A stretch of 38,272 nt of DNA, taken from positions 1 to 38,272 of the forward strand of contig JARLHZ010000003.1 of the NCBI GenBank assembly GCA_031291995.1. The letters run 5' to 3'. Below, piece by piece: positions 8,314 to 27,823 of the stretch. Under the pieces are notes generated by a model that saw nothing but the letters and a program-made list of their open reading frames with translations, was not told the origin of the DNA and searched no databases. Made by a program: the position numbers and the translations under genes. This stretch comes from Candidatus Doudnabacteria bacterium (GTDB lineage: Bacteria; Patescibacteriota; Doudnabacteria; UBA920). How positions within the stretch are numbered: position 1 is the stretch's first letter; each line of letters begins with the position of its first letter.

Positions 8314-8703
8314 TTAGCGTTTAGCTAAGACAGCCTTAAGTTTAGCTAAAATTTCGTCCGGTGTAAAGTAGGCTTTAACCATAAATTCGTCAGCTTTAAG
8401 CGCCTTGGCTCTTAAAATATCCTGGTTGCTCCAGAGGTTGCTTAAGACAATTACCGGGATGTTGGCCAATTTTTTGTCGCTGTTGCCGCGGATTTTTTCC
8501 AAAACCCCAAAACCGTCCAGCTCCGGCATCATTAAATCCAGCAACAGCAGGTCCGGCGGATCTTCGTCAAACATTTCCAAAGCCTTTACCCCGTTTTCGG
8601 CGTGGCGCACAATAAACCCGTTGGTTTCCAGCTTATGACTGACAATTTCCGCCATCGCCACATCATCTTCCGCCACCAGTATATTATTTTTTTGCTCGGG
8701 CAT
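8314..8703 (-). CDS. Single-domain response regulator (REC only)
   Basis: 129 aa, CheY/Spo0F-like receiver with no output domain. Acidic pocket AEDD (D13/D14), phosphoacceptor Asp in LLLLDLMMPELDGFGVL (~D56), Thr/Ser equivalent in VIVLSNL (S~87) and conserved Lys in MVKAYFT (~K109). Accepts phosphate from a histidine kinase and signals by protein contact. No kinase is adjacent; the only one in the window is at 22877-24565. It has its own extended -10 promoter and may be the first gene of the pnp transcript, since no clear terminator separates them. Confidence 0.93.
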   Translation of the reverse strand: MPEQKNNILVAEDDVAMAEIVSHKLETNGFIVRHAENGVKALEMFDEDPPDLLLLDLMMPELDGFGVLEKIRGNSDKKLANIPVIVLSNLWSNQDILRAKALKADEFMVKAYFTPDEILAKLKAVLAKR

Positions 8704-12537: not shown

Positions 12538-12849
12538 ATGAATTTAAAAAAATATTTTTCATTCTTTGGGCTAACAATGTCCGTACCAACTTTGATATAT
12601 ATATTTTGGTATTCAATTCCTGAAGCCGTGAGCGCTTGGCCATGCAAATTTAAATGTGAGGATGGAACTTATTGGGTGCTTTTTATAGTAGCGCTAGTAG
12701 TATTAATAGTAATTAATAAAGTTTCTTTAGCTGCCGTAAAAGAAACGAATAATTACCATAAAACTGTCTATACTATTTTTGTAGTCGCATTATTTTTGCT
12801 TACCGTGTTATTTGATGTATTTATATTCTCAGGGGAAGGTATACATTAA
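12538..12849 (+). CDS. Small membrane protein with three TM helices, 103 aa
   Basis: The reading frame is open far upstream, but the part before 12538 overlaps the hydrolase gene and its promoter; MNLKKYFSFF starts just after a consensus promoter. Hydrophobic segments lie at ~8-27 (FFGLTMSVPTLIYIFWYSI), ~45-62 (YWVLFIVALVVLIVINKV) and ~77-97 (TVYTIFVVALFLLTVLFDVFIF). CxxxC (CKFKC) lies in the first loop. The region is markedly AT-rich relative to its neighbours, which hints at acquisition. No SD. No family recognised. Confidence 0.6.
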   Translation: MNLKKYFSFFGLTMSVPTLIYIFWYSIPEAVSAWPCKFKCEDGTYWVLFIVALVVLIVINKVSLAAVKETNNYHKTVYTIFVVALFLLTVLFDVFIFSGEGIH

Positions 12850-13105
12850 CGAAGTTTCAGGATATTTTTGAAACAAAAAAATAGTATAAAAATTAATACT
12901 ACAAAATTTTTTATACTCACAATAAGACTTATTTTTCAGTATCGCATATTCCTCTTTTAAGTTGTCAAAGAGCGATGACTTGGAATCAAAGGTTCCTATC
13001 CCAAGCAATAAAATTCAGGTTGGATTTAAATTCAATTGCCCGGGCGGGAAATTTTGGGTATTTGCTGTTAGTGTGCATTTATCTAGAATTTAAAGGTTTT
13101 AGGAT
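12850..13105. other. AT-rich intergenic stretch without a convincing gene
   Basis: Holds a weak hairpin (GTTTCA…TGAAAC, 12854-12874) and only short ORFs, such as a 48-codon one from 12974 lacking SD or domain features. Nothing functional could be supported here apart from the dyad array that follows. Confidence 0.5.
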
Positions 13106-13178
13106 TGTTGTCAATATTTAACAGCATATTAGCTTGTATTTATTCACTTTAATAACAATCTGTTGTAAGCGTTTAACA
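13106..13178. promoter_or_regulatory. Paired dyad element, copy A
   Basis: Two 18-bp dyads of the form TGTT-N10-AACA: site A1 TGTTGTCAATATTTAACA (13106-13123) and A2 TGTTGTAAGCGTTTAACA (13161-13178), start-to-start distance exactly 55 bp. The same arrangement and spacing recur at 15811-15883. Copy A sits downstream of the broken surface-protein gene, with a terminator 43 bp further on and no gene behind it. Confidence 0.65.
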
Positions 13179-13218
13179 GTAGCAAAAAACAAGAAATGCC
13201 GCCTACATTGAAATGTTA

Positions 13219-13250
13219 AAACGCCGCCCTTTTTAGGGCGGCGTTTATTA
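13219..13250. terminator. Strong bidirectional terminator after the surface-protein gene
   Basis: ACGCCGCCCT (13221-13230) pairs with AGGGCGGCGT (13235-13244), a perfect 10-bp stem with TTTT loop. T-runs follow on both strands. It ends minus-strand transcription of the surface protein and would stop any plus transcript leaving dyad element A. Confidence 0.85.
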
Positions 13251-13260
13251 AAATGGCGGG

Positions 13261-14523
13261 TTAATTCCCACTAGAAGGAGTTGAAGTGGCATTTGAATTT
13301 CCACAGGTTCCGGCGATTTGGTTTAGCGGAGTATCACATTCTGGTAACTTCATAGGGACAACGCCATTCTGGCTCATTGCTAATTCAGCGCTATTTGCAG
13401 GCACAACTTTAGAAAAATCAAATCCCCAGGAATTAAAAGTAGCCAAGTCGGGAAACCCATACAGACTATTGTTGCCAACATAAACTACTGTTCCATTTTT
13501 ACTTACCCGTTGTCCAACACGGGCAGTCGCGGAAGTATCTGGCGCTGACAGCGTCAGGTTTACTGGAATCTGCAAATTTCCAGCGGAGCTACTTGCAGTC
13601 ACAGTACCGGTATAAGATCCCGGCGTTAGGTTAGAGGTATTTATCGATAATATCAAGATAATAGGATTTCCGAGAGAAGAGTACTGCTGGGCAGTTGTGC
13701 TTAGTTGCAGCCAACTACTATCGGTAGAAGCCTCGATTTTTGTAAGCTGTGAACTGTTGCTATTTATGGTAATGTTTTGATGTCCGATTTCCCCTGGCAA
13801 CAGATTAACTGACCAGGAAGAAGGGGTGGCCGTAAGTTGGATATTTGCTGGGCTTGAAGAAGATGAACCTGAACCTCCGGAGCCGGATGCCTGATTAATT
13901 GTTAGAGATAATAATTGTGATGCGGTATTCCCGGCTGAATCGGTAACCTGAATTTTCCATTGATAAGTACCGGCTGGACTGGCGCTACTAACAGCAGTGC
14001 AATTGTGAGTACCAAAAGTGGCAGCTAAGGTTGAGGAAGACACGGCATTATCAAATAACCACAAACAGCTGCCTGGATAGGTGGTGTAAACGGTACTCCA
14101 AGTATAAGGGGCTATGCCTCCACTCACTTGAAGTTGGGCGGAATAAGGCTGACCTATGGTGGCGTTGGGTAAATTTGTTGGAGTAATCTGCAACGAAACC
14201 GGAGTTGCTGATGTCGCGCTGCTTCCCCCGGATCCGCCGCCGGATCCGCCGCTTGAAACCGAAGTATTTACGGCAGTTGCCTGGAGAGGAGTAAGCTGGC
14301 CAGGTGTGCGGGCGGGTAAAACTCCCGTCTGACTCATGGCTTTATCGGCCGCGTTAGCGGGCACGACGTAGGAAAAAGAAAAACCCCAGCTGTTAAAAGT
14401 CGCCAAATCCGGAATACCTAAAACTCCATTGTATCCGACTAGTTGTACGGTCCCGTTATTATTTATTAAAACACCGGGGCGGTGCGCTGAGGTGGAATCG
14501 GTAATTGGGGCTGCGCTGTTCAT
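13261..14523 (-). CDS. Surface protein, C-terminal part (downstream of frameshift)
   Basis: 420 aa. Begins in mid-unit: upstream of its Met the same frame reads …IVADTGW, which continues the repeat left unfinished at the end of the 14520-15677 ORF, so this is probably not an independent gene although the ORFs overlap as ATGA. Contents: one module unit (NGTVQLVGYNGVLGIPDLATFNSWGFSFSYVVPANAAD), Gly/Ser linker, a He_PIG-like Ig domain (~115-215), Gly/Ser linker, a BACON-like domain (~230-330, …SWSVNLLPGEIGHQNITI…) and a last unit (NGTVVYVGNNSLYGFPDLATFNSWGFDF…). No signal peptide. Alternative: separate protein translated by coupling from the preceding ORF. Confidence 0.75.
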   Translation of the reverse strand: MNSAAPITDSTSAHRPGVLINNNGTVQLVGYNGVLGIPDLATFNSWGFSFSYVVPANAADKAMSQTGVLPARTPGQLTPLQATAVNTSVSSGGSGGGSGGSSATSATPVSLQITPTNLPNATIGQPYSAQLQVSGGIAPYTWSTVYTTYPGSCLWLFDNAVSSSTLAATFGTHNCTAVSSASPAGTYQWKIQVTDSAGNTASQLLSLTINQASGSGGSGSSSSSPANIQLTATPSSWSVNLLPGEIGHQNITINSNSSQLTKIEASTDSSWLQLSTTAQQYSSLGNPIILILSINTSNLTPGSYTGTVTASSSAGNLQIPVNLTLSAPDTSATARVGQRVSKNGTVVYVGNNSLYGFPDLATFNSWGFDFSKVVPANSAELAMSQNGVVPMKLPECDTPLNQIAGTCGNSNATSTPSSGN

Positions 14524-15677
14524 CCAGCCGGTATCCGCGACAATGCGTTGGCCAGGCTAAAACCCAGGCCGCTAATTAAACCCGGAGAGCTAAATGAAGC
14601 CTTGCGGCCGCCGCTGATTAAAAAGCAGGTGCCATTGTCGAGAGCAGCTGTCGGGCAAACCACCTTTCCGTCATTGGGAGGAATAAACGATCCGGCCGGT
14701 ATGGTCAAATCGGTAGCACTCATTGGCACCGTCTGATTATTGGCATTAAAGCCATACGACAAGAAAGCCGCTGAGGATGAATAGGCGCGGCGGGTGCCGT
14801 CGGGAGAAATCATATAAATTACTCCGGTGGAGTCCACGACGTTAGTACCGATCGCGTGAGAACCAGCGGGCAGGGACGTGGCTGCGGCAGTATTGGCCAC
14901 ATTGTTGTTACTCCCGGATGATCCCGAAATAAGAGATAAGGAAGGGGTGGTACTGCCAATAACTGCCGGAGTTGAACTTGAAATGGCCGACGGTGTACCT
15001 GTGACAGTCGGGGCAATCCCGACAGAAGAGACAGTTGAAGATGCTAAAGTATTGGCAGATGCGCCGGACAAAACTTCCAGTTGTTCGGGTTGGCGGCTGG
15101 ACAACACCCCGCCTGTCGGCAGGAGGATATCAGCGTCATTCGCCTGAACAATATCTTGAAAAGAAAACCCCCAGGATTGCAGAGTGGCCGGATCGGGAAT
15201 ACCTAACAAACCATTTCCCCCTACCAGATAAACCGTGCCATTTTTGTTAACCAAAGTCCCCGGCTGGTGCGCGGCGGCGGAAGTATTAATAGTAGATGTG
15301 GCGTTTAAAAAGGAAACATCTCCGTATTGGACATTATTAAAAGAGTAACCAAGGCCGTGGAAAACATCGGCGCTGGTAAAGCCCGATTTTTGCCCCGCCG
15401 TGATTAGATAGCAGGTGCCTTTATCCCCTCCCCTGTCGGAACAAAAGACCTTGCCGTCCCGGGGCGGGATAAAACTGCCCTCCGGTAAAGCCAAATCTTC
15501 GGGCGAGGCCGAAACAACGCCGGTCCAGGTATTAAAGTCGTAGGATAAAAAGGCTCCGGCGGAAGTATAAGGCCGCCTGACGGTCTGGCCATTTTCCGTC
15601 GTTATGGTATAAACTGTCCCGTTTGCGGTTGAAATATTTGCCCCCCAAAGGATGTTGGGCGGCATTGGCGACCGCAA
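14520..15677 (-). CDS. Surface protein, N-terminal repeat part (between two frameshifts)
   Basis: 385 aa. Built from two copies of a three-unit module: units at ~10-70, 72-130 and 131-185 (NGTVYLVGGNGLLGIPDPATLQSWGFSF…), then a Ser/Thr linker, then units near 280-345 and 348-385. Pattern of a unit: GTVYLI, a gap, a Gly/Lys turn, f-S--aFlsyGFsf, then a-dl-lp-G. The ORF's own start (MRSPMPPN) lacks SD and signal peptide, whereas the other frame just upstream encodes a perfect one (15729-15660). The ORF ends abruptly (ALSRIPAG) inside a unit. One intact gene of ~820 codons was probably broken by two single-base changes, or the bases are assembly errors. Confidence 0.75.
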   Translation of the reverse strand: MRSPMPPNILWGANISTANGTVYTITTENGQTVRRPYTSAGAFLSYDFNTWTGVVSASPEDLALPEGSFIPPRDGKVFCSDRGGDKGTCYLITAGQKSGFTSADVFHGLGYSFNNVQYGDVSFLNATSTINTSAAAHQPGTLVNKNGTVYLVGGNGLLGIPDPATLQSWGFSFQDIVQANDADILLPTGGVLSSRQPEQLEVLSGASANTLASSTVSSVGIAPTVTGTPSAISSSTPAVIGSTTPSLSLISGSSGSNNNVANTAAATSLPAGSHAIGTNVVDSTGVIYMISPDGTRRAYSSSAAFLSYGFNANNQTVPMSATDLTIPAGSFIPPNDGKVVCPTAALDNGTCFLISGGRKASFSSPGLISGLGFSLANALSRIPAG

Positions 15678-15729
15678 GCAGGCTGGCCCACAAGAAAATG
15701 GCCGCCGACATAATGTAAATTTTTCTCAT
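15660..15729 (-). pseudogene. Out-of-frame signal peptide of the surface protein
   Basis: From the ATG at 15729 the frame reads MRKIYIMSAAIFLWASLLAVANAAQ, a classic Sec signal with cleavage after ANA. It then continues in the wrong frame (HPLGGKYF…). Dropping one C from the CCC near 15663 joins ANAA directly to NILWGANISTANGTVY of the 14520-15677 ORF. The first 69 nt therefore belong to that gene. Confidence 0.7.
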
Positions 15730-15779
15730 TGTTTTTAAAATTCCGCCGCGGTTAATTGCCTCGGCTTCTTAATTATTTA

Positions 15780-15788
15780 TGCTATAGT
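15780..15788 (+). promoter_or_regulatory. Extended -10 for the TrmB-like regulator gene
   Basis: TGCTATAGT (-10 TATAGT at 15783-15788). No clear -35. It would give a ~120-nt leader containing both dyads of element B, ahead of the ATG at 15916. Confidence 0.4.
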
Positions 15789-15791
15789 TTA

Positions 15792-15819
15792 AATATATAT
15801 AATTACTGTTTGTTGTCAA
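15792..15819 (-). promoter_or_regulatory. Promoter of the surface-protein gene
   Basis: Minus strand: -35 TTGACA (plus 15814-15819), 16-bp spacer, -10 TATATT (plus 15792-15797), ~60 nt upstream of the signal-peptide ATG at 15729. The -35 lies inside dyad B1, so a factor bound there would block or modulate this promoter. Confidence 0.6.
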
Positions 15820-15883
15820 TGATTAACATATATTAACCTTATTTTCGCTTGCTTTTTCGGCAATCTGTTGTTATCCTGTAACA
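15811..15883. promoter_or_regulatory. Paired dyad element, copy B (divergent control region)
   Basis: B1 TGTTGTCAATGATTAACA (15811-15828) and B2 TGTTGTTATCCTGTAACA (15866-15883), both TGTT-N10-AACA, start-to-start exactly 55 bp as in copy A. It lies between the divergent surface-protein and TrmB-like genes; B1 overlaps the -35 of the former. Candidate operator pair for a dimeric regulator, possibly the TrmB-like protein itself (inference). Confidence 0.7.
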
Positions 15884-15915: not shown

Positions 15916-16605
15916 ATGGAAAATCAATTACTCAAACAATTGGCAAACTTCGGGCTTTCGGAAAAAGAGGCTAAAATTTACCTGGCCTTACTTGAACTCG
16001 AAGCGGCAACTGTATTTGAAGCGTCCAAACAATCGGGCATAAACCGCAGCTCGGCTTACGTTGTATTAGAAGGCTTAAAGAAAAAAGGCTTTGTCGGCAT
16101 TTCCGACGACAAAAAAGTCCGCCGCTATATAGCAGCATCCCCTGAAACCCTCCTGCTCGCCGCCAAACAGGCCGCAAAAAAACAGGAAGACACCAAACTC
16201 GGAATTGAGTCAATCATTCCCGAACTTAAAGCTTTGCACAAAGGAGCCAAACACAGGCCCATAGTAAAAGTGTTTGAGGGAGAAAATGGGGCGAAGGATG
16301 TATACTGGAATATTTTTTCATCAACAGGAAAAGACCTGAAAACATTTGCAAACCCCATAAATATGTTCAAACTAATTTCTAATTTTATAGAACTTGATAA
16401 AGAGAGAGGGCGTCGCGGAATCAAAATGTTTGCTATAAATGCAGGCACGAAAGAGATGATTGAGCTTTACAAAAAAAATAAACCGAGCAAACCATACGAA
16501 GTTGCCTTAATTCCTGAAAAAAAATTTAAATTCTCTTCCGATATGGGGATTTATGGAGATAACACTTTTCATTTCCCCGGAAGAAAACTTTGGAATAGTC
16601 ATTGA
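15916..16605 (+). CDS. TrmB-family transcriptional regulator, frameshifted near its C-terminus
   Basis: 229 aa as read. The N-terminal winged helix (1-~75) is TrmB/Rrf-like: LANFGLSEKEAKIYLALLELEAATVFEASKQSGINRSSAYVVLEGLKKKGFV. A coiled linker (~90-115) follows, then a C-terminal effector domain (~118-220). The ORF ends …GDNTFHFPGRKLWNSH, but the next frame continues the expected sequence (…FISPEENFGIVIESKEIADMLRNTFDLAWEEAKRL). Removing one T from TTTT at 16566-16569 restores GDNTFISPEENFG. TrmB proteins typically control sugar or metabolic genes; placement before the lyase operon and beside dyads B suggests local control. No SD (GCCTGGTT precedes ATG). Confidence 0.85.
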   Translation: MENQLLKQLANFGLSEKEAKIYLALLELEAATVFEASKQSGINRSSAYVVLEGLKKKGFVGISDDKKVRRYIAASPETLLLAAKQAAKKQEDTKLGIESIIPELKALHKGAKHRPIVKVFEGENGAKDVYWNIFSSTGKDLKTFANPINMFKLISNFIELDKERGRRGIKMFAINAGTKEMIELYKKNKPSKPYEVALIPEKKFKFSSDMGIYGDNTFHFPGRKLWNSH

Positions 16606-16756: not shown

Positions 16757-16777
16757 TCTGGAAAAATAAAGGGAATA

Positions 16778-16786
16778 TGCTATAAT
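16778..16786 (+). promoter_or_regulatory. Promoter of the ammonia-lyase operon (extended -10)
   Basis: TGCTATAAT with -10 TATAAT at 16781-16786; weak -35 (CTGGAA at 16758-16763, 17-bp spacer). Start near 16793 would leave an ~18-nt leader without SD before the GTG at 16811. The operon can thus be transcribed independently of the regulator. Confidence 0.6.
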
Positions 16787-16810: not shown

Positions 16811-18388
16811 GTGAAATCAAAAAGTTTTTTTATTAACGGCCATACACTTAATCCCCGAAGTTTAGCAACATTTACCGCGAGCCACAGACAACACATTGAA
16901 ATAAACAGTTCGGCTTTAAATAAAGCTGAAATTGGGCATCGGTTTTTGGCGGATACGGTAGAAAAAAACAACCGTGTTATTTATGGTATTAACACGGGCT
17001 TCGGGCCAATGGCCAACTATATATTGGCCCATGGGCAAATTGAAGATCTGCAAAAAAACCTTATTCTTAGCCATGCGGCCGGTTTAGGCGAAAAACTTCC
17101 CGACGAATATGTTTTAGCCGCGATGGTTGTTCGTTTGAACACTCTGGTATTGGGCCATTCGGGCGTTTCTCCGGAATTACTCAAACGCCTGGAACAGTTT
17201 ATTAACCTGCGGATTATTCCGGTAGTGCCGAAGCATGGCGCGGTTGGCACCAGCGGGGATTTGGTCCAGTTAGCGCATATTGCTTTAGCCATAATTGGAC
17301 AAGGAGAGGTTGTTTATAAAAACCAGCGCCAAAAAACCGCTGCGGTTTTAAAACAGCTCGGAATAAAACCATATAAGCTCAAACCCAAAGAAGGATTGGC
17401 CCTTATAAACGGTACCGCGATGATGACGGGTATAGCCGCACTTTTGTGTGTTGAGACTGCGGATATCTTAAGTCTGGCCGTACGCAACGGCTGCTTGGCC
17501 CTGGAATTGGTTAAGGCCTATAGCGACAGCTTCGGTCCGGTAATACATCAGCTGCGCCCGCACCCGGGCCAGTCGGCCATTGCCAAAACCATGAGGACAG
17601 TCCTGGCCAACTCGCAATTAATCCGAAATCGTGATGGTTTAAATAAACAGGCCAACCAGAGCAAAGAAGTTCACAAAATAAGCGACTCGGTCCAAGAATT
17701 TTATTCCATGCGTTGTCTGGCGCAGGTATTGGGTCCGGCATACGACACACTATCTCATACTTGGAAGACCACAGAAATTGAAGTCAACTCGGTTACGGAT
17801 AATCCGATTGTCGATTGGGAACACAAAACTTTCCTACATGGCGGCAATTTCCATGGCGACTACATTGCCGTAGCCATGGACCAGCTAAAAATGAGCCTGG
17901 TAAAACTGACAATGCTTTCGGAGAGACGCCTGAATTTTTTCCTTAACAATAAAATAAACCAGACATTCCCACCATTTTTAAATCTTGACACTCCAGGGCT
18001 TACTCTTGGGCTCCAAGGTCTGCAATTTGTTGCCACTTCGACTACAGCGCACAGCCAAACACTGGCTTACCCTATGAACCTGCACTCCATCCCCACCAAT
18101 GGCGATAACCAAGATATTGTGAGCATGGGATCTGACGCGGCTCTTTTGACAGGCGAGGTTTTGGAAAACGCGCGGATTGTCCTCGGCATTGAGCTATTTG
18201 CCTTGTGCCAGGCGGTTGATTTCCTGAAAGTTAAAAATCGATTGTCCAAACAGTCGCGAAATTTGTACGGGTTTGTCCGGGAAAATGCGGAAAAAGTTAC
18301 TGCCGACCGCTCGCTGTCCTTAGAGTTGCAATCATTTTTGGCCAAACTTAAAACTAGCCAGGAAATAAATTTATTTAAGAAATTTTAA
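16811..18388 (+). CDS. MIO-type aromatic amino acid ammonia-lyase (HAL/PAL/TAL family)
   Basis: 525 aa, full length, GTG start. The family removes ammonia from His, Phe or Tyr (or moves it, in aminomutases) using an MIO cofactor made autocatalytically from a tripeptide, usually Ala-Ser-Gly. Here the site reads GAVGTSGDL (Thr147-Ser148-Gly149). Other landmarks: Tyr58 in IYGINTGFG (catalytic Tyr loop), Asn200 in LALINGT, Tyr298/Arg301 in VQEFYSMRC, NQD (433-435) in DNQDIVSMG. True HALs have NQED here, so PAL/TAL-like chemistry is favoured. Ser87-His88 in NLILSHAAG fits a polar ring, so tyrosine (giving p-coumarate) is a reasonable guess, not proven. No hut genes are nearby. First gene of a six-gene operon; 14 nt before the ligase. 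Confidence 0.93.
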   Translation: MKSKSFFINGHTLNPRSLATFTASHRQHIEINSSALNKAEIGHRFLADTVEKNNRVIYGINTGFGPMANYILAHGQIEDLQKNLILSHAAGLGEKLPDEYVLAAMVVRLNTLVLGHSGVSPELLKRLEQFINLRIIPVVPKHGAVGTSGDLVQLAHIALAIIGQGEVVYKNQRQKTAAVLKQLGIKPYKLKPKEGLALINGTAMMTGIAALLCVETADILSLAVRNGCLALELVKAYSDSFGPVIHQLRPHPGQSAIAKTMRTVLANSQLIRNRDGLNKQANQSKEVHKISDSVQEFYSMRCLAQVLGPAYDTLSHTWKTTEIEVNSVTDNPIVDWEHKTFLHGGNFHGDYIAVAMDQLKMSLVKLTMLSERRLNFFLNNKINQTFPPFLNLDTPGLTLGLQGLQFVATSTTAHSQTLAYPMNLHSIPTNGDNQDIVSMGSDAALLTGEVLENARIVLGIELFALCQAVDFLKVKNRLSKQSRNLYGFVRENAEKVTADRSLSLELQSFLAKLKTSQEINLFKKF

Positions 18389-18392
18389 CCTA

Positions 18393-18401
18393 CCCCCCCC
18401 C
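18393..18401 (+). repeat. C9 homopolymer directly before the ligase start codon
   Basis: Nine consecutive C between the lyase stop (18386-18388) and the ligase ATG (18403), in the position where an SD would be expected. A tract of this length is prone to slippage; it changes spacing, not reading frame. Confidence 0.9.
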
Positions 18402-18402
18402 A

Positions 18403-19914
18403 ATGCCCCAGCCCCACCAATCAAAAAAACCAAACGGCAACTGGGTGACCGATTATTACAGATTGGATATAAAGACAATTGAGCAGGATTTAAAAAACCA
18501 AACCGGGAACATTTGGCAAACTCAAAGCGAAAAAAGAGCACTGGATATTTTCCACCAAGCCGCCAAAAGAGTTCCGGCTTACAAAGATTTTTTGCACCAA
18601 CATAAAATCCGTCCCGAGAAAATAAAAAGCATTAAAGATTTTTCCCAAGTTCCCGCCACGGACAAAAAAAATTACATTTTTAAATATCCCTTAAAAATGC
18701 GGGCTTGGGATGGCAAGCTAAATCAGGGAAAAATTATTGCCTCAAGCTCTGGAACCACGGGTAGCAGTAACTTTTGGCCGCGCGGGCGCGGACAGGAATT
18801 GAAAGCCGCGGTCACGCACGAGCTGCTTTACAAAAACTTTTTTGAAATAGATAAATATCAAACCCTCCTAATAATTGGGTTTCCAATGGGCGTTTACGTT
18901 TCGGGAATGGCCACGGTTTTGCCCAGCTGGCTAGTGGCGCAAAAATATCCGCTGACTGTTATGAGCGTCGGCAACAACAAAACCGAAACGCTCAAAGCCA
19001 TAAAAAATTTACACAAACTTTACCAGCAGATTATTTTTGTCGGGCATCCATTTTTTATTAAAGATGTTATTGAAACGGGGAAAAGCGCCGGGGTAGACTG
19101 GAAGAAAATCAAACTGCGGCTGATGTTTTGCAGTGAAGGGTTTAACGAGGCCTGGCGCGAGCATCTAATGGATGAGGCCGGGATCAAAAACAAATTCGGC
19201 TCGACTCTAAGCACCTATGGATCTTCCGAGATGCTGCTGATGGCTTTTGAGACCCCAATGAGCATAAGCTTAAAACAGCTGGCCGAAAACAAACCGAGCT
19301 TGTTTGGCCGGGCGCACGCTCCCAATGTGTTCCAGTACAATCCCCTGCTCCGCTATGTTGAAGGGGTTAATCGGGAACTAATTTTTACCTCGGACAGCGG
19401 CCTGCCGCTTATACGCTTTAACCTCCACGACAGCGGAAAAACCCTAAATTTTAAACAGGCGGCTACAGCTTTAGATTCCGGAAATAAAAATTGGCGCGCT
19501 AACATAAAACCCTGGCCGCTGTGGCAGCTCCCGTTTTTGGCTCTCTGGGGCCGCAGTGACCACACCATAATTTTTTACGCCGCGAACATCTACCCCGAAC
19601 ACATTCACGCCGCCCTGCACCAAAAACCTTTTTTGCGGAATTTAACCGGCAAATTCACTCTGCACAAAGGCTACAAAAAAAATATGGATGAATTTTTGGA
19701 AATCAACATTGAGCTCCGGCCAAACGTAAAAAAACAAAATACTATGGCCAAAAACATCCAGCAAGCGGTTGTAGAAAAGCTTGAGGGCATTAATATGGAA
19801 TATCAATTCTTAAGAAACCACTTGGAAAAGGACCTGGTACCGAGGGTAAAACTGCATCCCTACCAACATCCCGCCTACTTTAAACCTGGATTAAAACCAA
19901 AATATATTAGCTAA
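18403..19914 (+). CDS. PaaK/CapK-like adenylate-forming ligase
   Basis: 503 aa. Related to phenylacetate-CoA ligase: activates a carboxylic acid as acyl-AMP, usually then passing it to CoA. Visible: P-loop SSSGTTGSS (~113-122), RVPAYKDFL near the N-terminus, GFPMGVYVSG (substrate-side loop), LRLMFCSEGFNEAWR (~233-248), STYGSSEMLL (A5-like, ~266-275), GLPLIRFNLHDSGKTL (~345-360, the D-x-G/R region), and a small C-terminal domain (~400-495). Direct coupling to the ammonia-lyase makes a cinnamate- or coumarate-like acid the likely substrate, by analogy with TAL plus coumarate ligase pairs; the acceptor (CoA, carrier or amine) is unknown. No SD; a C9 tract precedes the ATG. Confidence 0.85.
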   Translation: MPQPHQSKKPNGNWVTDYYRLDIKTIEQDLKNQTGNIWQTQSEKRALDIFHQAAKRVPAYKDFLHQHKIRPEKIKSIKDFSQVPATDKKNYIFKYPLKMRAWDGKLNQGKIIASSSGTTGSSNFWPRGRGQELKAAVTHELLYKNFFEIDKYQTLLIIGFPMGVYVSGMATVLPSWLVAQKYPLTVMSVGNNKTETLKAIKNLHKLYQQIIFVGHPFFIKDVIETGKSAGVDWKKIKLRLMFCSEGFNEAWREHLMDEAGIKNKFGSTLSTYGSSEMLLMAFETPMSISLKQLAENKPSLFGRAHAPNVFQYNPLLRYVEGVNRELIFTSDSGLPLIRFNLHDSGKTLNFKQAATALDSGNKNWRANIKPWPLWQLPFLALWGRSDHTIIFYAANIYPEHIHAALHQKPFLRNLTGKFTLHKGYKKNMDEFLEINIELRPNVKKQNTMAKNIQQAVVEKLEGINMEYQFLRNHLEKDLVPRVKLHPYQHPAYFKPGLKPKYIS

Positions 19915-19915
19915 A

Positions 19916-21100
19916 ATGAATCTGGAAAAAACTTTAAAAGCTAAAGCTAAATTGCAAGCAGAATCGACTCCGCGGTTATTTGATTTGTCAAAAACCGGAC
20001 ACCGGCAAAATCTAAAAAAGCTGTTTGCAAAAAAACATATCCGTCAGGTTGTAGATGACTACCGCGAACAACTTAAGGAATATTATCAAATATTGAATCC
20101 ACAAATTGCCAGTCTTCCAATTTTTGAAAAAAACTTCCAAAATTACATTAGCGGGTTTGAAAAAAATGGTAGTTTAATGACCCATGGCCGCTGGGTATAC
20201 TTTCCTTGGCTGGAAACATTGGTCCACATTCTTGAAGAAAAAAATTTCTTTGTAGTCCGAACTGCTAGAAACAAAAACCTGATTACTGAAGCGGAACAAA
20301 AAATATTTTATGATGCGGTTATTGGAGTGGCGGGCTTAAGCATTGGCAACAGCGCGGCTTTAGCCATTACCCTCCAAGGTGGTGCCAGACACATCAAGCT
20401 AGCCGATCATGACAAACTGGAATTGTCTAATACTAACCGCATCAGGACTTCCATTACAAATTTAAGCCTTCTCAAGGTACAAGTAGCGGCGAGACAAATT
20501 TACGAGCTGAACCCTTATGCGAAAGTCGACATATTCTCTGAAGGGATAAATGAAAAAAATATAAGCGGTTTTTGCCGAGATTTAAATATTATTATAGACG
20601 AAGTTGATAACCTGGCAGTTAAATATTTACTGCGTGAGTATGCCAAAAAAAAAGGTCTGCCGGTAGTCATGGCGGCAGACAACGGAGATAACGGGCAGGT
20701 CGACATCGAAAGATATGATATAAACAAAAAAACCAAATTTTTCCATGGGCGCTTGGGAAAAGTTAGCCTAACTGATTTAAAAAGCCTCAATAAATTTCAA
20801 ACGGGTCGACTAATAGTGAAACTCCTGGGGGTTGAAAATATCGGACAAAGGACTTATGAATCGTTCCTGCAAATGGGTAATACTTTGGTAAGTTGGCCGC
20901 AATTAGGAGGTTCAGCTTTGCTAAACGGTTCTGTAGTGGCCTATTGCGTGAGAAAAATTCTTAACAAGCAAAAATTATCAGCTTCCAGAACCGTTATTTC
21001 GCTTGACGCCATACTGACTCCAAACTTCGATTCTAAAGAGATAATAAGCCAACGGATAAAGATTGTAAAAAAAATTAAACAAATCCTCAAACTGCCATGA
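19916..21100 (+). CDS. ThiF/E1-like adenylyltransferase (Rv1355c N-terminal half type)
   Basis: 394 aa. The N-terminal ~125 residues are helical (…RWVYFPWLETLVHILEE…RNKNLITEAEQ). The E1/ThiF Rossmann domain follows: IGVAGLSIGNSAAL (135-148, nucleotide loop), LADHDKLELSNTNRIR (162-177; Asp164/166, Asn174, Arg175), IIDEVDNLAVKYLL (~225), LPVVMAADNG (~252). E1-like enzymes adenylate a C-terminal carboxylate. No zinc-binding CxxC pair is evident, so it differs from MoeB/ThiF proper. The layout, together with the downstream nitroreductase gene (ATGA overlap), matches mycobacterial Rv1355c-type proteins that fuse both domains. It starts 1 nt after the ligase stop, so translation is coupled. The substrate is unknown; no ubiquitin-like or precursor peptide is seen nearby. 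Confidence 0.85.
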   Translation: MNLEKTLKAKAKLQAESTPRLFDLSKTGHRQNLKKLFAKKHIRQVVDDYREQLKEYYQILNPQIASLPIFEKNFQNYISGFEKNGSLMTHGRWVYFPWLETLVHILEEKNFFVVRTARNKNLITEAEQKIFYDAVIGVAGLSIGNSAALAITLQGGARHIKLADHDKLELSNTNRIRTSITNLSLLKVQVAARQIYELNPYAKVDIFSEGINEKNISGFCRDLNIIIDEVDNLAVKYLLREYAKKKGLPVVMAADNGDNGQVDIERYDINKKTKFFHGRLGKVSLTDLKSLNKFQTGRLIVKLLGVENIGQRTYESFLQMGNTLVSWPQLGGSALLNGSVVAYCVRKILNKQKLSASRTVISLDAILTPNFDSKEIISQRIKIVKKIKQILKLP

Positions 21101-22155
21101 CTGATGTTTTAGAAAAAATAATTGATGCCGCCATCCACGCCCCCTCAGGCGATAATTGCCAACCGTGGAAATTTGCCGTCAAAAATGACAATCAGATTTT
21201 GGTTTACATTATCCCTGAACGCGACCAATCCCTCTATAGTTGGGGCAACAGGGCTTCATTGCTCGCCATAGGCGCGGCTATAGAAAATGCGGCGATTGCG
21301 GGCAAACATCTTGGCTATAATATTTCCGTCGAATCTTTCCCCTCCGGCGACGAGCCGAACCTAGTTGCCAAACTCACGCTGACAAAAAACGATGGGGTCG
21401 AACAAAATTTATATAGCGCCATTTTTACACGCTGCACCAACCGTAAACCCTACAAGCGGCAACCACTAGCCCCGGAGCTTGTTAAATTATTCGGAAACGA
21501 CTTCGGCGGTATTCAAGTGGCGAAGCTCTTAATGGCAAACGACAGCTCAGAAATTAAAAAGTTGGCAAAATTATCGAGCGCCAATGAAAAAATTCTATTT
21601 GAAAATCTTTTGATGCACCAATTTTTTTACAGCCACATCAATTGGGATGCCGGCCAAGAGCTGCACCACCGGGAAGGCTTTTATATTAAAACCTTGGAGG
21701 TTCCAGCATTTGCCATGCCGAGTTTTAAACTCGCCAAACACTGGCCTGTATTAAATTTTCTGAACAAATTAGGTTTTGCAAACATTATTGCCTCAGAGAA
21801 TGCCAAAACTTACAATTCCTGCTCTGCCATAGGCGCAATTGGACTTGTCGATAACTCAGCACAAAGTTACCTGGCGGGCGGAAGACTGTTTGAAAAAATA
21901 TGGCTGACGGCAACCAGTCATGGTTTACAACTTCAGCCTTTAACCGGCATCTGCCTCCTAATGCAAAAACTTATTAATAATTCGGCCAGAGAGCTTTCAG
22001 ACACCCACAGAAAGTTAATAACGGAAAACTACGGACAAATGCAAAATATTTTTAGTTTAAAAAATAAGACCATCGCATTATTGTTTCGTATCGGATATGG
22101 CCCGGAGCCGAGTGCCCGGACACTGCGACTGCCTCCACAAATTCTAGAACGGTAA
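21097..22155 (+). CDS. Nitroreductase-like flavoprotein (Rv1355c C-terminal half type)
   Basis: 352 aa, longer than simple nitroreductases (~200). Start APSGDNCQPWKF (~14-25) matches the Acg/Rv1355c-type nitroreductase entry, where FMN phosphate and ribityl contacts lie; WGNRASLLAIGAAIENAAIAGKHLGY (~49-74) is the dimer helix; TRCTNRKPYKRQPL (~114-127) is typical of the group; AGGRLFEKIWLTATSHGLQLQPLTG (~265-290) is the second flavin region. The family performs two-electron redox on aromatic or quinone substrates, or in some members binds flavin without turnover. It overlaps the ThiF-like gene by 4 nt (ATGA), so the two are made in equal amounts and probably form one complex (inference). Confidence 0.85.
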   Translation: MTDVLEKIIDAAIHAPSGDNCQPWKFAVKNDNQILVYIIPERDQSLYSWGNRASLLAIGAAIENAAIAGKHLGYNISVESFPSGDEPNLVAKLTLTKNDGVEQNLYSAIFTRCTNRKPYKRQPLAPELVKLFGNDFGGIQVAKLLMANDSSEIKKLAKLSSANEKILFENLLMHQFFYSHINWDAGQELHHREGFYIKTLEVPAFAMPSFKLAKHWPVLNFLNKLGFANIIASENAKTYNSCSAIGAIGLVDNSAQSYLAGGRLFEKIWLTATSHGLQLQPLTGICLLMQKLINNSARELSDTHRKLITENYGQMQNIFSLKNKTIALLFRIGYGPEPSARTLRLPPQILER

Positions 22156-22158
22156 CCT

Positions 22159-22884
22159 ATGAACCTTTTTGCCAAAAGAATAAAGGAACCAAAGATAATG
22201 GATAAAATTGAGATGAGCGCATTTGAGCGCTTGTCGCTAGCTAACTATAAACGCTGGATTATCCCTTTGGCTGACAATGTCATAAAAGTCTCCGGATTAA
22301 AACGGGGCAAGATTTTGGATGTTGCCTGCGGACCAGGCTTGCTCAGCAAAGAATTGGCCGTGCGGTCGAAAAATTTTCAAGTTACTGGAATTGATTATTC
22401 GCCTCAGGCAATACGTTTAGCAAAAAAAAATTGTCGTCGGCTAAAAAACGTCAAATTTAGACTGGCCAATATTTACAAGCTTCCTCACGACAGTAATCAT
22501 TTTGACCTGGTCGTCTGTAAGGATAGTTTTCATCATTTTGACCATCCCGAAGCGGCCATTCAGGAAATGTTAAGGGTGTCGGGCCAAAACGGAGTAATCT
22601 ACATACAAGATTTAAAGAGGAACCTACCCAAATATATATTTAAAAAATGTCTTCCGCCAGATACGGTGATAAAAAAATTACAGTATTATTCAACCAGGGC
22701 TTCTTATACCCCCAATGAAATAAAGGTCATGCTTCATAAAATGGGTATAAAAAAATTTAGTGTCAAAACTCACATACCGAGCTTAAAAGAAAAAAATAAA
22801 TATAGCCGAATCGGCATAAGCTCCAAAACGTTAAAAGAAAGCTTAGAGTCGCGTTATTCACTAATTATAAAAAATCGTGTTTAA
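22159..22884 (+). CDS. Class I SAM-dependent methyltransferase
   Basis: 241 aa. Motif I ILDVACGPGLLSKEL (52-66), acidic loop VTGIDYSPQAIRLAKKN (~76-92), post-motif FRLANIYKLPHDSNHFDLVVCKDSFHHFDHP (~100-130), then LRVSGQNGVIYIQDLKR. This is the Methyltransf_11/25 fold of small-molecule O-, N- or C-methylases. Start 3 nt after the nitroreductase stop; a second candidate Met at codon 14 (AAGGAACC upstream) is possible. In this operon it probably methylates the aryl product or its conjugate (inference). Confidence 0.9.
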   Translation: MNLFAKRIKEPKIMDKIEMSAFERLSLANYKRWIIPLADNVIKVSGLKRGKILDVACGPGLLSKELAVRSKNFQVTGIDYSPQAIRLAKKNCRRLKNVKFRLANIYKLPHDSNHFDLVVCKDSFHHFDHPEAAIQEMLRVSGQNGVIYIQDLKRNLPKYIFKKCLPPDTVIKKLQYYSTRASYTPNEIKVMLHKMGIKKFSVKTHIPSLKEKNKYSRIGISSKTLKESLESRYSLIIKNRV

Positions 22885-24565
22885 TTTCTACAGCATCTTT
22901 GGGGGGAATAATTTAGACCTGTTGACTGTTGGGATAACCATCGCGGCTATCGCTATTTTAGGGTTTATTGTGTACGACAGCAATACTGACAGTATGACCA
23001 GTAAAACATTTTTAGCTTTGTCTTTTACGGATATTGGTTACGCGCTAGTTAATTATTTAAGTTACCACACCACTTCTGTTTCTTTGGCTCTTTTGTTTTT
23101 AAGATTAGTTATGTTTTTTGCGGTCTGGTATTCGCTGGTGTTATTTTATTTGGTGCTGGTTTTTCCAAAAAGCGAAACGCCAAAAATTCCCAAAATAATC
23201 AAGTTTATTTTATTTCCAATAACAGTCGCCACATCAGTTATCACATTAACTCCTCTGGTCTTCACAAAAATTTCCACCGCCGTCGTCATTGGCAAGGTGG
23301 CAAACCCGGAACGCGGGCCGGCTATCGCATTATTCGGCCTGGTTATAATGACTTTGGTCATCAGTAGCATTTATCTGCTTGGTAAAAAAACTTTTAAAGC
23401 CCAAGGTGAAGAAAGGAGCCAACTAAGGCTGGTTTGGATTGGCATCCTGATTACTTATACACTGATAATAATTTTTAATTTTATTTTACCGGTAATTTTT
23501 AATATCCTGGATTTTATCCCATTGGCCCCGCTCTTAACCTGTTTCTTTATTGCTTTTACTGCCTACGCCATTATTAAACGGCACCTGCTCAATATTAAAG
23601 TAATAGCAACAGAGTTGCTAACTTTTGTGCTTACAGTTGCGACCCTGTTCGAAGTTCTGGTATCGCAGGATCTGGTCACCCTGTTCTTGAGGTTTAGTAT
23701 TTCTTTGCTTGTATTGGGAATCGGGATTTTGCTTATTAAGAGTGTCCGTAAAGAAGTCGAGCAGAGGGAGCAGCTGGAAATTTTAAGCAAGCAGTTAGGC
23801 GAAGCTAATGAGAAGTTAAAGGTTTTGGACAGCGCCAGGGCGGAGTTTATTACTATTGCCAGCCATCAGTTGAGGACTCCCCCGGCAACGGTGAAGTGGT
23901 ATTTGTCCGCGGCCATGAATGGGGATTACGGAAAAATGTCCAAGGATGTTTTCGCGGTTGTGGAAAAAGCCGCGATTACCAATAACCACCTGATTTCCCT
24001 GATTGAAGATATGTTGAACGTCTCCAGGATTGAACGGGGGAAAATGGAGTTTTTGTTTGAGGAAACAAACGTGGAAGAACTTGCCAGTTTTGCCTACGAA
24101 CAGCTTATCCCGATTGCCAAAAACAAAAAACTTACTTACACCTACAATCCACCCAAAAAATCCCTGCCCAAAATTATGGCCGACAAAGAAAAGCTCCGCC
24201 AGGTTATGAATAACTTAATTGATAATTCCATAAAATACACCAAGTACGGCGGCAAGGTAACCGTCGGTCTGGCCAAATTGGGAGATGAAATTATGTTTCA
24301 AGTCGAGGACACCGGCAAAGGAATAAGCGAAGAAGAAAAAAATACGATTTTTGAAAAATACAGCCGCGGCAAAGAATCGGTCAAGCAAAGCGCCGGTCTG
24401 GGCCTGGGCCTGTATGTGGCAAAAATTATTATTGAACAGCACAAAGGCAAAATTTGGGCCGAAAGCGCGGGGGTGGAATTGGGCTCAAAGTTCTGTTTCA
24501 GTCTGCCCATAAACAGCGGTCTAAAGGAAACTACTCTTGTTGACCTGGCGGTCAAAAAAGCTTGA
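22877..24565 (+). CDS. Membrane histidine kinase, 7TM-type sensor
   Basis: 562 aa, GTG start overlapping the methyltransferase by 8 nt. The N-terminal ~290 residues hold seven or more hydrophobic helices (15-35, 45-65, 70-97, 108-128, 148-168, 184-212, 215-235, plus a pair to ~292), as in HisKA_7TM sensors. A coiled linker (293-320) follows, then HisKA with the H-box ITIASHQLRTP (His330), and HATPase_c with N-box NNLIDNSIKYT (~445-455), G1 VEDTGKGIS (~477-485) and G2 AGLGLGLYVAKII (~506-518). All catalytic boxes are intact. No response regulator lies beside it; the REC-only protein at 8314-8703 is the only candidate in the window. Last gene of the lyase operon, so it may sense the pathway's product or precursor (inference). 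Confidence 0.93.
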   Translation: MFNFYSIFGGNNLDLLTVGITIAAIAILGFIVYDSNTDSMTSKTFLALSFTDIGYALVNYLSYHTTSVSLALLFLRLVMFFAVWYSLVLFYLVLVFPKSETPKIPKIIKFILFPITVATSVITLTPLVFTKISTAVVIGKVANPERGPAIALFGLVIMTLVISSIYLLGKKTFKAQGEERSQLRLVWIGILITYTLIIIFNFILPVIFNILDFIPLAPLLTCFFIAFTAYAIIKRHLLNIKVIATELLTFVLTVATLFEVLVSQDLVTLFLRFSISLLVLGIGILLIKSVRKEVEQREQLEILSKQLGEANEKLKVLDSARAEFITIASHQLRTPPATVKWYLSAAMNGDYGKMSKDVFAVVEKAAITNNHLISLIEDMLNVSRIERGKMEFLFEETNVEELASFAYEQLIPIAKNKKLTYTYNPPKKSLPKIMADKEKLRQVMNNLIDNSIKYTKYGGKVTVGLAKLGDEIMFQVEDTGKGISEEEKNTIFEKYSRGKESVKQSAGLGLGLYVAKIIIEQHKGKIWAESAGVELGSKFCFSLPINSGLKETTLVDLAVKKA

Positions 24566-26722: not shown

Positions 26723-27823
26723 ATGGAAACCAAAATCTCTCCCCTAAAAAAATATATTACCGAGTTCCTGGAATTCTGCGAAATCGGCAAAAACCAAAGT
26801 CAGCGGACTTTGGTGACATATAATCATTATTTGCGGCGGTTTATGGAATTTGCCGCCCAAAACGGCGTCCATAAACCCGCCGACATCTCGTTGGAGCTGG
26901 TTCGAAAATTCCGACTTTATTTGAATCGGTTAGCCGATGACCGCGGCCAAAGCTTAAAGCTGGTCACCCAAAGCTACCACCTAATCGCCTTGAGAGCTTT
27001 TTTAAAGTACCTGATGAAGAACGATGTGACCACCCTAGCGCCGGAAAAAATTGAACTGCCCAAAAACCCCCAACGTCAGGTGGAATTTTTGGATGGCGGG
27101 GAATTGCGCCGTTTGTTTGAAGCGGTAAAAATGGAAAAACACGAACTCCCTCGGTTGCGCGATACCGCGTTACTCCAGACCCTGTTTTCCACCGGTCTGC
27201 GCGTTTCGGAATTGGCTTCGCTGCGGCGGGATAACATTAATTTGGACCGCAAAGAATTTACCGTGCGCGGCAAAGGCAGCAAGCTCAGACTGGTTTTTTT
27301 AAGCGACGAGGCCGCGGCGGATTTAAGAGCTTATTTAAGCAAAAGGCCGGACAGCGGCCAAGCGTTATTTATTGGCCATTCTATTATAGGTAAACCGGCG
27401 GATAAAAAGGAATCCGCCAAAAACGCGAAATCCATTGCCGCTTCCCAAAAAAGAATGGATAAAGAAATTGCCAGCCAGGGATACGCGTCGCCGAATTCCA
27501 AATTATCCGCCAAAGGCGGCCCCGCCTCCGGCGGACAAATTCCAAATTCCAAAACGGGGCTGACACCGAGGCAAATCCAGCGCATTGTCAAAAAGTATTG
27601 CCGACTGGCGGGAATTGTAAAAAAAGTCTCGCCGCACACTCTACGTCACAGTTTTGCCACCGACCTGCTCCAGAACGGAGCCGACATCCGGTCAGTCCAG
27701 ACAATGCTGGGACACGCCAGCATAACCACCACGCAAATTTATACCCATGTGACCAATGAGGGTCTGCGGGATATCCATAAAAAATTCCACGGAAAAAATA
27801 AAGGTTCCTCGCAGCAGAGCTGA
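26723..27823 (+). CDS. Xer-type tyrosine recombinase with internal insertion
   Basis: 366 aa against ~300 for XerC/D. N-terminal SAM-like core-binding domain (~8-105, QRTLVTYNHYLRRFMEF). The catalytic domain has Arg160 (STGLRVSELASL), Lys184 (VRGKGSK), His305-x2-Arg308 (HTLRHSFATDLL), His331 (LGHASITTT) and nucleophile Tyr340 (QIYTHV). All six are present, so it should be active, probably resolving chromosome dimers at dif, or acting for an element. Residues ~219-277 (GHSIIGKPADKKES … GGPASGGQIPNSKTG) are an extra Lys/Ser/Ala/Gly-rich segment between the beta-hairpin and the LTPRQIQRIVKKY helix, encoded in part by palindromic DNA. No SD. Confidence 0.94.
   Translation: METKISPLKKYITEFLEFCEIGKNQSQRTLVTYNHYLRRFMEFAAQNGVHKPADISLELVRKFRLYLNRLADDRGQSLKLVTQSYHLIALRAFLKYLMKNDVTTLAPEKIELPKNPQRQVEFLDGGELRRLFEAVKMEKHELPRLRDTALLQTLFSTGLRVSELASLRRDNINLDRKEFTVRGKGSKLRLVFLSDEAAADLRAYLSKRPDSGQALFIGHSIIGKPADKKESAKNAKSIAASQKRMDKEIASQGYASPNSKLSAKGGPASGGQIPNSKTGLTPRQIQRIVKKYCRLAGIVKKVSPHTLRHSFATDLLQNGADIRSVQTMLGHASITTTQIYTHVTNEGLRDIHKKFHGKNKGSSQQS
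27495..27560. repeat. Palindromic insert within the xer-like gene
   Basis: TCCGCC-AAA-GGCGG and CCGCC-TCC-GGCGGA are nested palindromes within one larger inverted repeat (27508-27537). ATTCCAAATT flanks them as a direct repeat (27495-27504 and again near 27538-27560). The frame is kept. It encodes part of the extra segment that normal XerC/D lack. Confidence 0.6.

Follow-up and report, generated by a model that had tools for sequence, protein, structure and literature searches.

Organization of the locus

The features of the locus are collected in Table 1, where positions refer to the window, the whole stretch of 38,272 nucleotides of a Candidatus Doudnabacteria contig that was analysed. The leftward gene of a surface or secreted protein and the rightward gene of a trmB-like regulator diverge from each other, and the region between them holds one pair of short dyads, copy B. 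A second pair, copy A, lies past the end of the surface-protein gene, with a terminator between them. The row of genes that follows trmB possibly forms one operon with it, although a promoter-like match at 16759-16786, ahead of the lyase gene, means that the row need not be co-transcribed with trmB.

Table 1. Coordinates of the features of the locus in the window
Feature	Position	Strand	Description
Secreted esterase-like (DUF676) protein, 1138 aa	8956-12372	-	Ig-like repeats; possible leftward target of copy A
Leader left of copy A	12850-13105	-	Over 33 nt up to the ribosome-binding site, similar to the leader of the G038 operator duplicate (by eye)
Operator A, site 1	13106-13123	+	TGTTGTCAATATTTAACA; holds the -35 TTGACA (13114-13109, minus strand) of a leftward promoter, -10 TAAATT
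Operator A, site 2	13161-13178	+	TGTTGTAAGCGTTTAACA; rightward -10 not recognisable
Terminator hairpin	13199-13260	.	AACGCCGCCCTTTTTAGGGCGGCGTT; separates copy A from the end of the surface-protein gene; read from sequence
Divergent surface/secreted protein gene	13261-15729	-	Signal-peptide-like start, Ig-like Big_13 match, repeats; two frameshifts
Operator B, site 1	15811-15828	+	TGTTGTCAATGATTAACA; holds the -35 TTGACA (15819-15814, minus strand) of the surface-protein promoter
Operator B, site 2	15866-15883	+	TGTTGTTATCCTGTAACA; trmB ATG 33 bp further on; may overlap a weak trmB -10, TATCCT
trmB-like regulator gene (PF01978)	15916-16605	+	Frame broken after codon ~216
Gene row after trmB	16811-24565	+	Aromatic amino acid lyase, PaaK-like ligase, ThiF/E1-like enzyme, Acg-type nitroreductase, methyltransferase, 7TM histidine kinase

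Three frameshifts fall in the two adjoining genes, at 15560-15730, about 14520 and about 16560 of the window. They suggest either the decay of both genes or indel errors of the assembly. Intact trmB orthologues are 261-268 residues long, and the broken frame in the window may likewise be a mutation or an assembly error. The system may therefore be inactive in this strain, unless the assembly is at fault.

The TrmB-like protein

The product of the trmB-like gene belongs to the TrmB family by its winged-helix domain (PF01978, E=2.9e-17, 62.7 bits against the Pfam cut-off of 25.6). Over about 215 residues it is 73% identical to the protein of genome G026, which is a Doudnabacteria of the same order as the window's genome (G000), and 71% identical to that of genome G038. 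Judged by full-length score, it does not appear to be a TrmB or TrmBL1 sugar-sensing equivalog: the NCBIfam equivalog models give 39.3 bits for TrmBL1 against a cut-off of 650, and 28.5 for TrmB against 600. An AlphaFold model of the regulator has a mean pLDDT of 86.6 and a pTM of 0.56. The nearest solved structures found by Foldseek are TrmBL2 (5bqt, E 2.1e-14, 21% identity) and TrmB (3qph, E 2.4e-9), in agreement with a TrmB-type fold, although the whole-chain TM-scores to both are low (about 0.4). No relatives of the protein were found in the viral contigs searched.

The dyad sites

All four 18-bp dyads claimed in the preliminary description are present in the window, and the two sites are 55 bp apart in both pairs. 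In this AT-rich window the plain pattern TGTT-N10-AACA occurs four times against 0.9 expected, and at least four occurrences were reached in 3 of 100 shuffles; taken alone, the pattern is no more than moderately rare. TGTTGT-N8-AACA is found exactly four times in the 1.49-Mb genome, every time in this window (control, 1). A genome-wide count of motif pairs, which had been proposed as a check, gives the pair twice in the genome and not at all in the control.

A scoring matrix trained solely on sites from other genomes ranks these sites as the top four of the window, with scores of 18.6 (copy A site 1), 14.4, 12.1 and 11.4. In random sequence as long as the window, a lone score of 11-12 is nothing unusual; the second sites of both copies, whose scores could be reached by chance, therefore rest also on their position and spacing. 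Copies A and B are identical at 48 of 73 positions overall, with 30 of 36 identical within the sites as against 18 of 37 between them, which fits sites that were kept while the remainder drifted.

Further regulon members were sought in the genome among matches with up to three mismatches (57, against 25 in the control), and none was accepted; the excess is probably inflated because the search pattern includes a -35. A seeming open frame of 24,216 residues at G000:C2:87583 was dropped, being a stretch with a long run of N.

Promoters overlapping the sites

As the preliminary description had it, copy B overlaps the -35 of the surface-protein gene, where TTGACA is followed by a 16-bp spacer and TATATT. 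A leftward promoter of the same kind in copy A (TTGACA-16-TAAATT) had been overlooked. In all eight site-1 copies with a TTGTCAA core, a perfect TTGACA stands on the reverse strand at a constant offset, which indicates that site 1 is built around the -35 of the leftward promoter. After a spacer of 16-18 bp, the same eight copies have a hexamer that resembles a -10 at 3 to 5 of 6 positions, so that the promoter matches come to 9-11 of 12; among random positions, 2.85% reach 9 of 12. The orientation is inverted in genome G103, where TTGACA, as read from the sequence, is directed toward trmB.

Site 2 falls inside or just past the expected trmB promoter and is less conserved than site 1. Its overlap with the trmB -10 is clear in G038 only (TTGCCT-17-TATATT). 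The -10 assigned to trmB in the window was chosen by eye and is weak (3/6 plus 4/6).

Conservation in Patescibacteria

The near-exact form of site 1, TGTTGTCAATNNTTRACA, was found at seven places in five of 380 Patescibacteria genomes, against two places for a reversed-pattern control. Five of the seven are located 100-190 bp upstream of a trmB homologue (window copy B, G026, G038, G013 and G103), and the remaining two are additional copies that G000 and G038 carry 2.65-2.7 kb away. Paired or triple dyads precede trmB orthologues in several Patescibacteria lineages. The site-bearing upstream regions are those of G026, G038, Staskawiczbacteria (L055), Wildermuthbacteria (L056), Wolfebacteria (L057), UBA3533 (L058) and UBA926 (L060 = G013), and a clear second or third site is present in all of them but the last.

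Site 1 has the general form TGTTGTCAATnnTTrACA, and site 2, located 20-80 bp ahead of trmB across the orthologues, is often the better palindrome, for example TGTTGGTATCTACCAACA. The distance between sites is 55 bp in both copies of the window, 66 bp in G026 and Wildermuthbacteria, 89 bp in Staskawiczbacteria, 106 bp in both copies of G038, and 109 or 110 bp plus 53 bp in Wolfebacteria and UBA3533.

G013 has trmB and the site, yet lacks the ThiF gene of the enzyme cluster, while G003, G004, G024, G025 and G032 have this gene and lack the exact site. This pattern indicates that the site tracks trmB and not the enzyme cluster.

Copy A and the duplicated operator of G038

It had been described that copy A has only a terminator and no gene behind it. 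This is correct for its right-hand side, but on the left there is the leftward promoter. G038 has its second operator copy 2,655 bp away from the first and in the same orientation; over 200 bp this copy shares 89% identity with the promoter region of trmB. The repeat begins at the outer edge of site 1 and runs to about codon seven of trmB, after which come a stop codon and a terminator. This copy precedes a gene for a 194-residue protein and one for an 884-residue secreted protein with a GHSQG box, a secreted hydrolase. The Ig-like repeat region of the latter and part of the DUF676 protein of the window share 37% identity. The proteins encoded between the two G038 copies differ from that of the window. 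The window and G038 have a common layout: in both, a copy of the operator separates a leftward gene for a surface or secreted protein from the leftward unit that comes next.

By analogy with G038, the DUF676 gene is a possible target of copy A. The link is weaker than its G038 counterpart because a small plus-strand gene (ATG at 12538, end at 12849) separates copy A from the DUF676 gene and because the frame just past the leader is closed. It is a serious possibility, although not the one we prefer, that copy A is a relic, a duplicated operator which now drives nothing and was kept by chance. No intact reading frame directly adjoins it on the left, the small gene intervenes before the hydrolase gene, and its site 2 is without a -10. 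Against this, its site 1 has the highest score in the window; the DNA between its sites differs in large part from that of copy B, yet the promoter is intact.

The leaders of copy A (window 12930-12990) and of the G038 copy (L048 6340-6385) both contain CTTTGACAA, followed in each by a ribosome-binding site and a reading frame of 2-3 codons (ATGCGATACTGA; ATGATATAA). Leaders of a similar kind, TTCTTTRACA-AGGAGG, occur at other loci too.

Proposed mechanism

The dyads lie between the regulator and a divergent gene and are kept there in orthologues, which is the arrangement of a divergent operator. Each copy very probably consists of two operators of 18 bp that serve a dimeric regulator of the TrmB family. 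This regulator would act autoregulatorily and divergently, and copy A would be a duplicate that brings the next leftward unit under the same control. The earlier reading of the sites as functional operators for a dimeric protein gains strong support from their conservation upstream of trmB orthologues and from the fixed -35 within site 1.

The protein that binds would be a dimeric winged-helix protein of the TrmB family, and the most likely candidate is the one encoded next to the sites. Between the two divergent genes, site 1 of copy B lies over the -35 of the surface-protein gene, and site 2 falls in the promoter or the leader of trmB. A dimer bound at site 1 would shut off the leftward promoter, and one bound at site 2 the promoter of the regulator itself. 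Repression in both directions, which we favour over activation, would last until a presumed effector frees the operators. The regulon would comprise the regulator, the surface protein and possibly the gene row downstream, if this is co-transcribed. Copy A, as a duplicated operator-promoter between the terminator of the surface-protein gene and the next leftward unit, would draw the latter into the regulon, its present target being putative.

It is less probable, but not far-fetched, that TrmB binds as an activator or dual regulator, or that sites 1 and 2 cooperate through looping. Archaeal members of the TrmB family repress or activate according to the position of the site (PMC4158304), and several of the spacings are near 5, 6 or 10 helical turns. 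However, site 1 lies over the -35 itself, the usual position for repression, and the 89-bp spacing (8.5 turns) and the general spread speak against strict phasing. The looping suggested in the preliminary description is thus possible, but the spacings of 53, 55, 66, 89, 106 and 109-110 bp, corresponding to 5.05-10.5 helical turns, have no constant helical phase and lend it no special support; a strict phasing for looping was rejected because they are too varied.

That another regulator binds the dyads, for example the response regulator of the 7TM histidine kinase, with trmB as one of its targets, is quite improbable. The kinase is found within the cluster, and the window (8314-8703), G038 and L060 each have a gene for a stand-alone receiver-like protein in the vicinity. 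However, these receiver-like proteins are only about 130-150 residues long, with no room for an added DNA-binding domain; furthermore, G013 has the site and trmB without the kinase cluster, and several genomes have the cluster without an exact site.

Sites of tyrosine recombinases, such as those of the Xer/dif system, are short imperfect inverted repeats. The dyads resemble them in this respect, a gene for a XerC/D-type recombinase is present in the window (26723-27823), and the two copies, directly repeated, lie on either side of one gene here and, 2.65 kb apart, of other genes in G038; nevertheless the proposal that the copies are Xer-like recombination sites or exchange repeats bounding a surface-protein cassette is very improbable and was rejected, because G026, G013 and G103 have a single near-exact site with no second copy and because the G038 repeat is by nature a promoter, a copy running from site 1 into the trmB codons as expected of promoter duplication, with different content between its copies. 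In addition, the sites follow trmB promoters and enclose the -35, and the dyad spacing of 53 to 110 bp is unlike a conserved recombination core.

Comparison with known systems

The preferred reading, a pair of autoregulatory operators in a divergent region, has a classical counterpart in tetR/tetA, an example of a divergent autoregulated repressor-operator region. Both have one regulator, two dyads and two divergent promoters, with self-control predicted here. They differ in that the present regulator is of another family, the divergent target varies by genome and the operator is duplicated to a second promoter.

The archaeal regulators TrmB, TrmBL1 and Tgr share with the present protein the PF01978 winged helix, a helix-linked alpha/beta C-terminal domain and inverted-repeat promoter operators, and autoregulation has been reported for some archaeal members of the family (PMC4158304). 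The motif here is TGTTG-N8-AACA, in contrast to the archaeal TGM TATCAC-N5-GTGATA and TACT-N3-AGTA. Unlike the archaeal case, the promoter is of the bacterial sigma-70 type and the dyads are paired in a divergent region, the equivalog scores are far below the cut-offs, and valine replaces aspartate at a reported DNA-contact position. TrmBL2 of Pyrococcus (5bqt, 5bpd) has the nearest solved fold to the model, but it is an abundant chromatin protein, whereas the sites here are few and specific in the genome.

The family and the regulatory logic are of known kinds, while the literature searched gave no precedent for the motif, the setting or the copied operator. No paper combining "TrmB" and "Patescibacteria" was found in the open-access literature searched, and this may be the first predicted operator and small regulon of a TrmB-type regulator in Patescibacteria. 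The prediction supplies a motif, a promoter position and a recognition residue that can be tested, and with the intact genes of the orthologues the predicted binding is directly testable in vitro.

Recognition helix and dyad types

The DNA-binding residues listed for archaeal TrmB proteins include a Tyr-Asp pair (PMC4158304). The corresponding pair in the subgroup studied is Tyr-Val, and a helix of the form RS[ST]xYV goes with TGTTG dyads. Several relatives with an RTTxYD helix have the other dyad, TTGT[GC]...GACACAA, over a TTGACA. These observations are only suggestive of a tie between the residue pair of the helix and the type of dyad. The association of RS[ST] with its dyad is partly circular, because seven of the nine RS[ST] sequences trained the matrix. 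A counterexample is the YD relative L020, which scores 13.4 on the matrix, and most YV relatives of the RATTYV type are without a TGTTG-type site.

In the sister RTTxYD subgroup, a TTGT[GC]-N12-[GC]ACAA dyad lies across TTGACA upstream of the trmB-like genes of L020, L021, L022 and L026, and it is likely a second type of operator. In a third subgroup, with a RATTYV helix, TGTCA-N8-TGACA dyads are found upstream of the trmB-like genes of several members (L065, L077, L081, L082).

The enzyme and sensor cluster

The set of ligase, ThiF, nitroreductase and kinase genes occurs in many other Patescibacteria, and the ThiF gene of the cluster is found in 39 of 240 genomes. Cluster members lie close to trmB in G026, G038 and L055-L058. 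A search of the open-access literature on this enzyme cluster found nothing relevant.

It is conceivable, though rather unlikely, that the TrmB-type switch runs a small-molecule signal pathway of Patescibacteria. The compound would be produced and sensed by the products of the conserved genes (aromatic amino acid lyase or amino-acid dehydrogenase, PaaK-like ligase, ThiF/E1-like enzyme, Acg-type nitroreductase and 7TM histidine kinase), the same switch would turn on secreted or surface proteins, and the operator would have been copied to recruit further surface genes. The predicted regulon would tie surface and secreted proteins to a conserved cluster of enzymes and a sensor; such small, often host-dependent bacteria may use these proteins on other cells.

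In G026 (L047 2675-9244, minus strand) the gene divergent from trmB, beside the same operator, encodes a 2189-residue protein of the RHS/SpvB/FG-GAP type. The cluster loci, namely 16811-24565 of the window, L047/L134, L048 and L055-L058, include an aromatic amino acid lyase or an ELFV dehydrogenase. The ThiF protein and the nitroreductase of the cluster resemble the two halves of fusion proteins of the Rv1355c type.
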